Shown in pieces: positions 43,746 to 57,300 of a stretch of DNA of 64,000 bases. Numbering within the stretch: the stretch's first letter is position 1; every line of letters begins with the position of its first letter. The position numbers and the translations under genes were made by a program. Source of the stretch: Xiphydria camelus (Eukaryota > Arthropoda > Insecta > Hymenoptera > Xiphydriidae); assembly GCA_963678675.1 (NCBI GenBank), contig OY783192.1:3048001-3112000 (forward strand). Direction: 5' to 3'. The notes beneath the pieces are model-generated. The model did no database searches and was not told the origin of the DNA. It saw nothing but the letters and a program-made list of their open reading frames with translations.

Positions 43746-44425
43746 TTTTCATTAAATTATAATTATCAAACCGGTTGTCGGCTGAGAATAATCTTTTGGA
43801 TACTAAAAGTGAAAGAGTTGAAAAACCAGAGAAAAATTGCATCGACCAAAAGAAAAATTTTTTAATAATTTTATTTGCACTTGATTTAAACAAATGACGT
43901 ATTTTCATAGCTGGCCACTTTTTAAAAATCTGAAAAAAAGCAAGCATATACTTTGATATCCTCTCCTTAACGACAAATAAACAAAAATAACGACACTTTA
44001 AAATTGACGACACAAAAATTAATTGAAGTTGACGCCGCGTCGGAATTGGCACGTCGGCCCCGCCACCAGCCAACGGTCGGTGGGTTCGACTGGCTTGGCG
44101 ACACGCTAGCGGTGGGGCCGACGCGGCGAGGCCGACGCGGCGTCAACTTCAATTAATTTTTGTGTCGTCAATTTTAAAGTGTCGTTATTTTTGTTTATTT
44201 GTCGTTAAAGAGAGGATATCAAAGTATATGCTTGCTTTTTTTCAGATTTTTAAAAAGTGGCCAGCTATGAAAATACGTCATTTGTTTAAATCAATTGCAA
44301 ATAAAATTATTTAAAAAAGTTTTTTTTTGATCGATGCAATTTTTCTCTGATTTTTCAACTCTTTCACTTTTAGTACCCAGAAGATTATTCTCAGCCGACA
44401 ACCGGTTTGATAATTATAATCCTCT
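43746..44425. repeat. Inner 300-bp inverted repeat of the foldback
   Basis: Two arms of about 296 bp (43746-44041 and 44129-44425) are near-identical inverted copies separated by 87 bp. The spacer has its own tandem GGCCGACGCGGCG units at about 44118-44147. A transcript across this block would form a very long, almost perfect hairpin and could be a source of double-stranded RNA (inference). Confidence 0.9.
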
Positions 44426-52000: not shown

Positions 52001-53710
52001 GGTTCGAATCTTAAAACCGAAATAAGTCTGCAGTGAAATACGAGTTCCTCATTTACCGATAAACTTTAATTTCTCCAAATTTCATCAAGATCAGAGGCAA
52101 ACACCTCGGACGATTTTCTTGTCGAGGAAGAAGACAGCCAGGAGAGTTTCCACGATAATGAGATCCGTACGTCTACCCGATAACGGTCCCCTCGTAATGT
52201 CTCATGGTTTTTTCAGTAGGCGCAATAAATGGAGAGTAATACGCGAGGAGTGAAAAGGCCCATTTGTAACAAGTTTTTAAAGCGCATTTTACTCGCTCTA
52301 ATATCTTTCCCTAATTTATTTACCCCGTCCGAGAAACACAATCTCCAACGCGAGAGCTCGCTCGCTTTTAACGATTAGGATAGAGAACGGTAGATATTTC
52401 AGTCCCGGTAATTTATCGCCCAATACGAAGTCTAATTTTTCTTTCCGTTTCCTGTAATTTTCTATCGCACCGTATTCCTCGACTTGTTCTCGTATCGAAC
52501 TCCGCGTGTCTCTCCTTCACGTCAAACGAGCGCGATATCAGTCGCCCCGTCGTTCGATTTATCAGTCTCACCCTCGCTGACGCGCCTCTCCCTGCCTCTT
52601 CCTGGTTAAAATAGTCCCTTTTTCGAGAATGTTTGCATCGCCGCTAACGACTCCCTCGATACGCACGATACGCGGAACGACGAGTCGAAAGATTCGGCAC
52701 TTCCGGAAGGGGGCGTACGCGTAGACACCTATACGAGAGAATCCGAGTGAAATCACTTTCTACGAGTCCTGCCAATGAAGATAATCGGGATTAGGTCGGG
52801 CCGGGGGGATACGAAGTGCTTTTAATTATCGAATTAATATTCGTTGAGCGCGCGATTACGCAACACTTCGTCCCCCTTCGGCTGTCTTTATTTTAGTCCG
52901 CGCCTCTCAGACAGACCTGTAATTTGGCGTCATTTAATATAATTAGTTTTTTGTTCCCCCGGTCCTCTTACATTTTTCTTGTTTTTATTGCCTACCGGCT
53001 CGTTTTACAGCCGCCTCCTCCCCCTTTCTCTTTCTCTCTCCCTATCATCCCGCCTCTCTCCTCATTTACTCGCTTACTCTCGCGCTCTCTATCTCCCTAC
53101 AACGCACTTCGTGCCGTCTTCTCCCTCTCCCCCCTTCACGTTCTCCTCTTTCCTCCGCCACTTAGTTCCCCCACCGGGGTATCCTCTCTCGGCTCTTCCA
53201 TCTTACTCTCCTCGCCTCCTTGAAAAGCGCTGGATGTCTATGCCGCGAGCCGAGCCGAGCTCCGACGCTGAAATTATGATCATTCCCGTGATTACCGGGC
53301 GCTTTCCTCAGCGAAACTTCCACCTCACTTTCAGGGCTCGCGCTTAAGAGCGTCAGAACGAATACCTACGCGTCCACACAAATGAGCATTTTTGTATCCT
53401 ATGACTTAACGCGGGGCGAGCGCGAGGGCGAGGCACGCGTCAGAAGTTACCGCGAGTAACTGTAGCGACCCGAGGAGAGACTGATAAACGTACCTGGATA
53501 ACGACTCGCGCTAGATTCGCACCCTTCCTTTCCTCTCGGCTGTTTTTGCGAAAATGAATTTTCTGGATCGCGCGGGAGGTAGCCCCCTGGGTACGCCAGT
53601 TTTTCACAGACCTTCCACTCCGGTTGAAATTTAGGGGGAACAACATTTTTAGCCGGACGGCAATGTTCGTTTAGCGAGCAAAGCAGGACCTGGGGGACAC
53701 TGCGGCGACC
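49011..53710. other. Long stretch with no recognised gene or element
   Basis: AT-rich to mixed DNA in which the frames are short (mostly under 100 codons). A CGCA repeat lies at about 51330-51350. A strongly pyrimidine-rich tract lies at about 53010-53220. No transposon ends, RNA genes or protein motifs were found. Confidence 0.45.
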
Positions 53711-53814
53711 CGTCACGCTGTGGCGGCCTGACGCCAGATGGCGCCGACTCTCTCGGCCCTCGGCTTGCGGCTACTGGCTCTCGGCTCTCGGTTGTCCAAC
53801 GACGGTGCAGTTAC

Positions 53815-53822
53815 TATATAAG
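53815..53822 (+). promoter_or_regulatory. TATA-box-like TATATAAG
   Basis: This is a good match to a metazoan TATA box. A start site about 31 bp downstream would fall near 53846, inside the first hairpin of the ribozyme candidate. Transcription from here would therefore miss the 5' strand of its closing helix, and read-through from upstream would be required for cleavage. Confidence 0.45.
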
Positions 53823-53832
53823 AGGACCACAG

Positions 53833-53900
53833 AGCGTCTAAGGCAGGAGTCGGCCTAGCCTCACTGACGAGTCCACAGGCCGACTCCGGGACGAAACGCT
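53833..53900 (+). ncRNA. Candidate type III hammerhead self-cleaving ribozyme
   Basis: All core elements of a hammerhead are present in the right order. Helix III pairs 53833-53837 (AGCGU) with 53896-53900 (ACGCU), five pairs. The cleavage triplet GUC ends at 53838. Helix I pairs 53839-53844 with 53858-53863, with one A-C mismatch. The conserved CUGACGA is at 53864-53870. Helix II pairs 53871-53874 (GUCC) with 53889-53892 (GGAC). The conserved GAA is at 53893-53895. Loop I (53845-53857) and loop II (53875-53888) contain 11-nt segments, 53846-53856 and 53877-53887, that are exact complements. This suggests a kissing interaction or, alternatively, a competing hairpin. Hammerheads cut their own RNA at the H17 position and in animals usually travel with retroelements or satellites. 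Activity is not shown by sequence alone. Confidence 0.75.
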
Positions 53901-54338: not shown

Positions 54339-57300
54339 ATGTATTTTTATTTAAGCTGAAAATTCTATATAAAAATTTTTAAAATCATAGATGCGATCAT
54401 GGAAAAATACAGAAATCTCGCCTGGAGATTATGGAAATATCATGGAAATTTATTATCCTTAATCGCGCGAGACACCCTGGTATGGACGTATTACGATAAT
54501 GAAGTTCTGATATTTGGTTCTGAGCATTTCAATGTTTTTAGGCGTCTTTTGAAAGAATGCGGTGCATATTGCATTCGCAAAATTAATAAAAACGCGGGCT
54601 TTTTGAAACGCAAAGAATAATCCGAATTCCCTGTTTTCACACCGTCACTCGGATGAAATTCTTTTAATCTCCATCGCGTTTTCCCGGAATTATTCGCGTT
54701 CAAAAGCAGAGCGAGTTATTTCATAAAAGTCCCGTATATGCGCGCGCGCAGGTATTTTCCCGTTGTCAGTAGGTGGTGTTGCGGTGTATACGATTAGGCA
54801 AGCTTCGTCGCGCTTTCTCGGAGCGTGCAGCCGCGACGCTGTAACGCGGGCAACGGGCGCTCCTGTAGCTAAGCAGGTACCCTGCATATTTTTCCGCGGC
54901 ACGAGCTGGCGCCTCGCCAGAAAAGAGTCCTCGCGTTGATAATGCATATTACCGAGCGTTACGCTGGCCGTTACCGTAGCGATAAAACTAAATCCCAGTC
55001 TCGTCCTCCTCGCGCGTCCCAACCCTTCGCGCCGCGCGTTGGTTTCTTCGTTCCAGTCCTACTTTCCCCCCGCAGCGATTCCCAGCTGTTAACCCCGCGT
55101 TACCGGCGGCACGAGCCGTGCTTTACCCGACGACCGCGCGCACGCGGGCATTCGTAAAAGTTACCGTAGATCGTGATCCGCCTGCACACGGCCCGCATTA
55201 TTACTTATCTTCTGCAACCCGACGGAGATCACCCGCGGATTGCAATCTGAGATTATCGCGCCGACCAATCCTGGCTTTACGGGTTGCGGGGCTCTCTTCC
55301 TCTCTATATCGATGTACCTCCGCCTCCTTTTTCATATCCTCCTTCCTCCTTCGCTCCCGACTCCCGCTCTCGGTCTCGAAGCTTTTTACACGATCGCGAA
55401 CGCAAGGAGATTAATAGTTTCCTGGGGCGTATTAATACCTAGACCGCGCGAGCGATCGAGGGGATGCTCTATACGGAGAAATTGGACTTTTCAGAAATCG
55501 TATTTCAACTCTAGCGTACCTATATAGAGGAGGCGCCGCGATGGGATGGCCATAGTTTGAGCACGTATTGTCGAACAAAGTTGAAGAAAGTTCTGATAAG
55601 CATTTGTCACGCGGCATGACCGTCGTGATTATTGTCGTCGATGCGCTAAATAGGATACTACTGCATGTGTGTATAATTCAAGTTGTTGTTTTCGCGTTAA
55701 AACAGTTAATGGATTTTTTAAACCTAACTTCATTAGAGTGGCCTTTTCTTATTTCGCCTTTTGAATAAGAAATTGGCACTTGAAATGGCGCTATATATAT
55801 TATGAACATTACATTGTGAGGAGCCCTGTACGCGCGTTCTTAACTGTATTTCGGGCCACTTTACCATCCCGTCGATCTAATCGGTCCTAAGTAAGATTTC
55901 TTGTAACGAACGAATTAGCCAGACACGGCTCGTTAATTGGTCCACAATTGAAAACCGGTTCTACTAAAAAAGGAACATCTACTCATACATCTACGAAACT
56001 TCGTTCATCTATTGTCGTATCCTCGGTGACAGTTTCTATAGAGTGAGGAAATCCGCGTCGATGAAAGATAATTGGCCCGTGCACCGTCGTTGGACTTAAT
56101 TTCCACTTAATTTTAGACCTTCGCGCTATTTCCGTTCAACCTCGCCTGTGCTCGACGCGTTCTTGAATGGAGCATTTTTTACTCAACGACGGGTTTCCGT
56201 ATTTGTTCACGCATCGTCTGGCGGCGTCTCGTGCGCCGCAGTCTACTCTTTTTTTTTTTAACGCACTCTCGTACGCGCGCGTTGTACCACCGCGTCGCAT
56301 TCTTAGAGCTGTCAGGTCTGTCGTCACGGGACGGGTGCGACGGATACGCGCGTGGCGATCTTCCAAAGCGACGACGACGAGAGTCGTGATGAGCGGGCGT
56401 TATCGTTACGAAAAGTTAGTCCGGTGTGACGGCAGGCTAATGTTCTTCGGGTCGTATCAGTCTGTGACGTTGGGAATGTTACTTTCGAATGAATTTCCTC
56501 TTTGTGAATACGCGCGGACGGATGTATAGGTATTTAGGTACGAGACGAATGACCTTTCGCTCCGCGTGTCCGAATTCTAATGTCGCATCACGTTATTTTT
56601 TTTACTAAAAAATAAAGTAGGTTGCGTTTCATAATTTATTACTAATTGAACTATTGCACAATGAAATTACGTAATAATTAGTTCGTAAGCTCCGATTCAT
56701 CCTGTGACCCGATTCGTCTCGGTTTAGGCTGTGCAAAATTATCTAAAACATTCAAACAACGAGAAAGCTCAATTGGTTATCATTGGCGGAGCCTATGATA
56801 AAAACGTTAAATAAATGCAGGGGCAATTTACGAGACTTAGATGTTTCCTATGTCGGATAGCCGCCCAGCGAGCAGCCTCGCTGACTAGCGGATTATTCAA
56901 CGATGATCTATTCGTGAACTCGATCGACTCGCGATGTTTTTCCGACCCATTTTTCTCGCGAACGTGCGAAGGAACGAGCGCGGAAAAGCTACGGCACGTA
57001 ATAGAGATAACCCAACCTCTCCAGTATATATTGTAGAATCGTGTAGGGAGAGTGTCGAGCGGATGTAGAACGAGGCGTATGATTATATTCTAGTTAGTTC
57101 GCTCGCTGCGGTAGTACGCTGAACATCGAGCCCGTTTCGAAGCGTAATTAATCTTCTTCACGAATAAAAACAAAATAGAATAGCCACCATTGTTATTAAA
57201 CCGCCGCGAGCTGCTGCTCGTTGAAGTGTTTTAAGGTGGAGCGTATCTTCCGGGAGCAGAGAGAGAGAGAGTAGCGATATAGACTCGCGTGCCGGGCGGG

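Follow-up and report, generated by a model that had tools for sequence, protein, structure and literature searches.

The 64,000-nucleotide stretch of DNA that we analysed (the window) probably carries a decayed, truncated solo long terminal repeat (LTR) of a family whose LTRs bear a type III hammerhead motif downstream of a promoter, and whose youngest members, of about 1.07 kb, would be LTR retrozymes in an insect. As read from the nucleotide sequence, this family displays LTR pairs, a primer-binding site (PBS), a polypurine tract, 4-bp target-site duplications (TSDs), near-identical copies, a fully paired motif in its young members, and an LTR of this kind with the same PBS ahead of a Gypsy-like gag; the parts for a retrozyme cycle of the plant type appear to be present in the insect element. 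The preliminary description had proposed an unusual type III form in an insect element, and this holds in that the motif is of type III, lies within a mobile element and stands in what is probably an insect genome. The taxonomic evidence is one reading frame next to a copy (L035); across 29% of its length it shares 76% identity with its single match, a Mischocyttarus mexicanus (paper wasp) protein.

Young elements and a Gypsy-like partner

The genome searched comprises 357 Mb in 38 contigs, and each search scored at most the best 40 candidates, of 1,428 to 1,639 in four of the searches, which makes the copy numbers lower bounds and biases the samples towards the query. The motif and LTR of the window had at least 43 matches in the same genome (best 40 of 1,428 candidates scored). 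With the LTR of locus L139 as the query, at least 40 places were recovered, of which 15 matched exactly and the other 25 differed at about one position in 245 nt; among these 40 listed places there are 13 same-strand pairs, in which the ribozyme motifs lie 811–822 bp apart.

One complete element (L140) measures 1,067 bp, has LTRs of 250 nt, and is arranged in the order LTR, one base, PBS (TGGTGACCCCGACGTGA), internal region, polypurine tract (AGGGGGGGAGTAC), LTR, and the same PBS and polypurine tract were found at the LTR borders in the paired loci. We presume this PBS to match tRNA-Trp. Direct LTR pairs with a type III hammerhead in each LTR were seen in L140/L141, L142 and L145, their LTRs being 99.6–100% identical to the query. 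The young LTR has a fully paired hammerhead with an intact core, predicted to cut after LTR nucleotide 151. The internal regions of L139, L140, L142, L145 and L146 are 561–572 nt long, with a GC content of 0.59–0.60 and mutual identities of 90.5–99.5%, and their longest stop-to-stop frame is 120–158 amino acids (five LTR bases subtracted). When loci were inspected by eye, 4-bp TSDs were present in all seven young loci in which they could be tested, a count that leaves out L139 (tandem), L146 (truncated) and L148 (rearranged). For complete elements these are GTAC (L140, the same as L141), ATTC (L142) and CTTT (L145), and for solo LTRs AAAG (L143), ATTA (L144), TAGG (L147) and GTAC (L149). The predicted unit of 817 nt folds more stably than each of 20 shuffled sequences (z = -2.85).

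A possible source of enzymes was found in L130, an LTR of the ribozyme family that is followed, one base later, by the same PBS and then by a broken gag-pol (L131). In L131 the Pfam domain DUF7041 scored above its cut-off (E = 2e-24), while aspartyl protease, RVT_1 and integrase (rve) matches all fell below their own cut-offs; we read the order of the domains as that of Gypsy rather than of another LTR group. The 3' LTR of this partner was not found within 6.96 kb. A search with the gag start, in which 26 candidates were scored and eight loci compared (L132–L139), placed the ribozyme LTR directly before the PBS and gag in L132 (the L130 copy), L138 and L139, whereas in L133–L137 the same PBS and gag start follow sequence unrelated to it. 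That two unrelated LTR types precede the same PBS and gag may reflect an exchange of LTRs. The ribozymes of these Gypsy-like copies range from a TTGACGA core (L132) through a helix II mismatch (L138) to a fully paired form (L139).

The hammerhead motif and a predicted competing hairpin

In the window, all core invariants, the three helices and the type III arrangement that had been claimed for this motif are present, and the positions of its parts are collected in Table 1. The helices III, I and II have 5, 6 and 4 pairs, the structure is open at helix III, and the A15.1-U16.1 pair is formed by 53896 and 53837. Helix I contains one mismatch, A53840 opposite C53862, at a position where most other copies have a T partner (pair 10-32 is A-U in 35 of 40 distinct rows). 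The claim of exact loop complementarity over 11 nt was likewise borne out, as GGAGTCGGCCT (53846–53856) is the exact complement of AGGCCGACTCC (53877–53887).

Table 1. Coordinates in the window of the candidate ribozyme, its parts and the LTR fragment around it
Feature	Position	Strand	Basis or remark
Stretch common to the window and locus L002	53199-53967	+	95% identity; contains the LTR fragment
Probable truncated solo LTR	53701-53900	+	LTR positions 1 to 213 of 250; last part of LTR absent
TATA-like box TATATAAG	53815-53822	+	24 nt before nucleotide following cut; putative promoter role
Type III hammerhead ribozyme candidate	53833-53900	+	all core bases, read from sequence
Helix III, 5' strand AGCGT	53833-53837	+	sequence
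Cleavage triplet GTC	53836-53838	+	sequence
Predicted cut	53838/53839	+	predicted from sequence
Helix I, 5' strand	53839-53844	+	pairs with 53858-53863; sequence and other copies
Loop I	53845-53857	+	53846-53856 complementary to loop II
Helix I, 3' strand	53858-53863	+	sequence
Core CTGACGA	53864-53870	+	sequence
Helix II, GTCC / GGAC	53871-53874 / 53889-53892	+	sequence
Loop II	53875-53888	+	53877-53887 complementary to loop I
GAA	53893-53895	+	sequence
Helix III, 3' strand ACGCT	53896-53900	+	sequence

The LTR fragment is 73% identical to the LTR of L140 and 74% to that of L080, and the sequence beyond it is common only to L002 among the loci compared. In the young LTR the TATA-like TATATAAG begins at nucleotide 104, 48 nt before the nucleotide following the cut. 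Because the box lies so near the cut in the window's type of LTR, a start about 30 nt downstream of it would fall past the cut.

Other copies of the motif, which the preliminary description had asked for together with compensatory changes in their helices, do exist in this genome, but the helices showed no covariation beyond shuffled controls, either in 28 near-identical rows (from the 31 of 45 places that passed a near-intact filter, which favoured core columns) or in 43 near-identical rows (of 55 complete). The loop-loop complementarity likewise showed no compensatory change beyond shuffles. Across a first sample of 56 places the core was intact in 34, with all helix pairs in nine and at most one mismatch in 18, and the loops paired at 11 of 11 positions in 42 and at 10 or more in 54; a core base was broken or missing in the other 22, which counts against the ribozyme. 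A second sample of 26, in which L077 and L078 are one interrupted copy on two contigs, had 21 intact and five broken cores, all pairs in 11 and fully complementary loops in 18. In a third, of 20, the corresponding numbers were 12 and eight, four, and 14.

Nested folding, by a program that cannot score a loop-loop pseudoknot, gave the window a loop-loop hairpin fold of -30.9 kcal/mol against -12.5 for the hammerhead fold, and an intact copy -31.8 against -15.8. In folded prefixes a helix I-like stem comes first, and the hairpin prevails once loop II is present. It is conceivable, if unlikely, that the LTR element is real and its working RNA structure is this 11-bp hairpin, in the transcribed part of the LTR, serving strand transfer, packaging or dimerisation, the hammerhead being a relic or held inactive. 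The hairpin is the predicted minimum-energy fold and is retained where cores are dead, and few columns of the first alignment vary less than those of its arms (2.0% for the loop arms against 5.2% for helices I–III, a difference that is not significant when single changes only are counted, p = 0.32). However, the energies come from a program beyond whose scoring the pseudoknot lies, and the recently multiplied young LTR has a fully paired hammerhead with an intact core, neither of which a relic need keep. On these models the 11-nt complementarity could be a clamp, a switch or an interference.

A loose descriptor with the minimum helices seen here found one site on both strands of the window, as against one site per 634 Mb (one strand) of dinucleotide-Markov random sequence; some 2e-4 sites would be expected by chance in the window, where the motif is thus far more than chance, and about one in a genome of 357 Mb. 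Chance resemblance to a hammerhead is accordingly very improbable, even though the thresholds of the descriptor were chosen after the motif had been seen, about one site per genome is expected and the helices do not covary. The helices of the intact form exceed what the descriptor required, and the motif is placed in an LTR, as in plant retrozymes. The Rfam scores also lean towards chance: the window copy reached 21.3 bits with Hammerhead_3, in another register and against a gathering score of 48.5, and a covariance score under threshold had been set beforehand as counting against a ribozyme. No family reached its own gathering score anywhere in the window, and the best hammerhead match of the young LTR copies was 21.9 bits against 34 (Hammerhead_1). 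The family RF00008 gave no match in this genome but none in the controls either, which leaves that negative without weight. The long loops may be the cause of these low scores, which suggest that similar ribozymes elsewhere may go undetected.

A possible cycle and its relation to known elements

In the plant model, transcription from the LTR promoter begins upstream of the ribozyme, followed by cleavage at both ribozymes, circularisation of the unit and its copying by Gypsy machinery (PMC4918200, PMC11722881, PMC12029980); in N. benthamiana the 5' end of the transcript was masked by ribozyme cutting until the ribozyme was inactivated (PMC12029980). By analogy, transcription of the insect LTR would start slightly upstream of the ribozyme, the two ribozymes would trim the transcript to about 815 nt, leaving 5'-OH and cyclic-phosphate ends for a host ligase to join into a circle, and the related autonomous element would supply the enzymes for its copying and insertion. 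The 11-nt loop complementarity might form a loop-loop pseudoknot or, after the cut, a stable hairpin that disfavours religation. A more speculative extension, which we put forward tentatively and consider somewhat doubtful, is that a recently active animal LTR retrozyme would persist as an RNA circle of some 815 nt and that its hammerhead would work only cotranscriptionally: helix I and the core would form first, cutting would follow, and the 11-bp loop-loop helix would then clamp the ribozyme or make an inert hairpin, favouring stable circles.

The plant LTR retrozymes, as described in these sources, share with the insect element a type III hammerhead in both LTRs, a similar LTR size, a length of about 1–1.5 kb, a PBS and polypurine tract, 4-bp TSDs, a GC content above 55%, many solo LTRs and a likely Ty3/Gypsy helper (PMC4918200, PMC11722881, PMC12029980). 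They differ in their dicot rather than insect host, in a PBS for tRNA-Met rather than the one seen here, and in ribozymes about 600–800 nt rather than 811–822 apart; the insect element is unlike them in its long loops with 11-nt complementarity and in that related LTRs are also found on a Gypsy-like element. A 2024 review reports complete LTR retrozymes from dicots only and characterises those of metazoans as non-LTR elements carrying type I hammerheads (PMC11722881). The latter are, like the present family, hammerhead-bearing non-autonomous retroelements in animals, but they are described as type I, as tandem repeats of 170–400 nt and as having no LTR, PBS or polypurine tract (PMC7229834).

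Type III hammerheads of HDV-like RNAs, termites and flies agree with our candidate in type, in occurrence in insects and in loop pseudoknots, which are predicted for about 40% of the hammerheads of one study (PMC3088659), but those described in the accessible text are isolated genomic motifs or HDV-like circles with shorter loop pairing (PMC7936874, PMC3088659), and a structure-based search for their architecture reported none in hymenopterans (PMC7936874). Penelope-like elements also carry a hammerhead in the terminal repeat of a retroelement (PMC11167929), though of type I (PMC7229834) and with another reverse transcriptase, and their ribozyme mutants still inserted in vitro (PMC11167929). 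PbTRIM of the ant Pogonomyrmex barbatus is a short hymenopteran LTR element with 4-bp TSDs and solo LTRs; it differs in its ATAT-rich targets and a PBS for tRNA-Leu, and the word ribozyme is absent from its accessible text (PMC3532108).

The literature searched, whose coverage mostly excludes subscription journals and preprints, yielded no description of an animal LTR retrozyme. One paper points to insect type III elements as a potential source, with reference to a previous publication and to work in preparation (PMC7761336), and part of this finding may therefore already be known. If true, an animal LTR retrozyme living as a circle of some 815 nt would connect the retrozymes of plants to elements in animals, with implications for how retrozymes and viroid-like RNAs arose. 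A young insect LTR retrozyme together with a Gypsy-like relative whose PBS is the same and whose LTR is of the same kind would allow tests, in an animal, of how ribozyme-bearing circular RNAs originated and spread, and the 11-nt loop complementarity offers a new test case for hammerhead folding.

Older copies and nested insertions

Among older stand-alone LTRs, a first set of 35 places included 20 with both ends, eight of which had exact 4-bp TSDs, as did 10 of a second set of 20 further copies taken from the 40 matches listed; pooled, this amounts to 18 of 40 complete older copies (P ~5e-33 at a chance rate of 1 in 256). No empty insertion site was seen among the loci compared. Many predicted ribozymes of this older layer are dead (CTGTCGA core, altered helix II, loss of a helix III strand). 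Most older copies sampled are single units, and some older LTRs are carried by a DNA element whose inverted ends are of the CCCGGGTCGA type, the LTR there being flanked by GACA twice; another old insertion (L030, L032) has GGGC on both sides. Although these single units, and the copies inside an element with inverted ends of its own, are what one would expect if the repeat were itself a DNA element, with 4-bp duplications and the short inverted ends TGTGGCGA..TCGCCACA, that reading has next to no probability given pairs 811–822 bp apart, a PBS and polypurine tract at the correct borders, a single TSD enclosing the entire element and an LTR of this kind preceding gag.

The CCCGGGTCGA-ended element was rejected as the true host of the ribozyme, being one carrier; some degenerate ribozyme lineages were amplified as its cargo. 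It is non-coding, with CCCGGGTCGA-/CCCGGGTCGARTWTTTTG-type inverted ends, occurs in at least 40 places (L010, L034+L062, L036, L012+L043 and others) and, by eye, has arbitrary 2-bp repeats at both ends in four of the seven copies with both ends. The LTR evidence counts against a Penelope-like or satellite origin.

Partial copies that start at the cut site (L067, L068, L013, L012, L023, L050+L061, L077, L079, L083, L095–L097) were considered as insertions of self-cleaved RNA, an explanation we rejected, as ordinary nested insertions are simpler. Against it stand L077, L096 and L097, in which palindromic DNA elements are repeatedly inserted at the TAA (of TCTAAGG) adjoining the ribozyme cut site, with TAA on both sides, and L050+L061, a composite copy containing, at the cut-site position, a fragment of a LINE, some 1.13 kb long, with an A-tail and words resembling reverse transcriptase.

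In three loci (L111, L113, L112) an LTR is followed by unique sequence, about 100 to 300 bp or more in length, and then by a 5'-truncated LTR; by eye, a single 4-bp repeat encloses the unit in L111 and L113, not in L112, and the unique sequence was possibly captured via template switching. In the window itself, 56080–56095 repeats 16 nt of the LTR (53794–53809) exactly and in inverted orientation (E = 0.02), perhaps by chance, and 43848–44070 and 44105–44327 form an inverted repeat with 223-nt arms, 94% complementary and separated by 34 nt.
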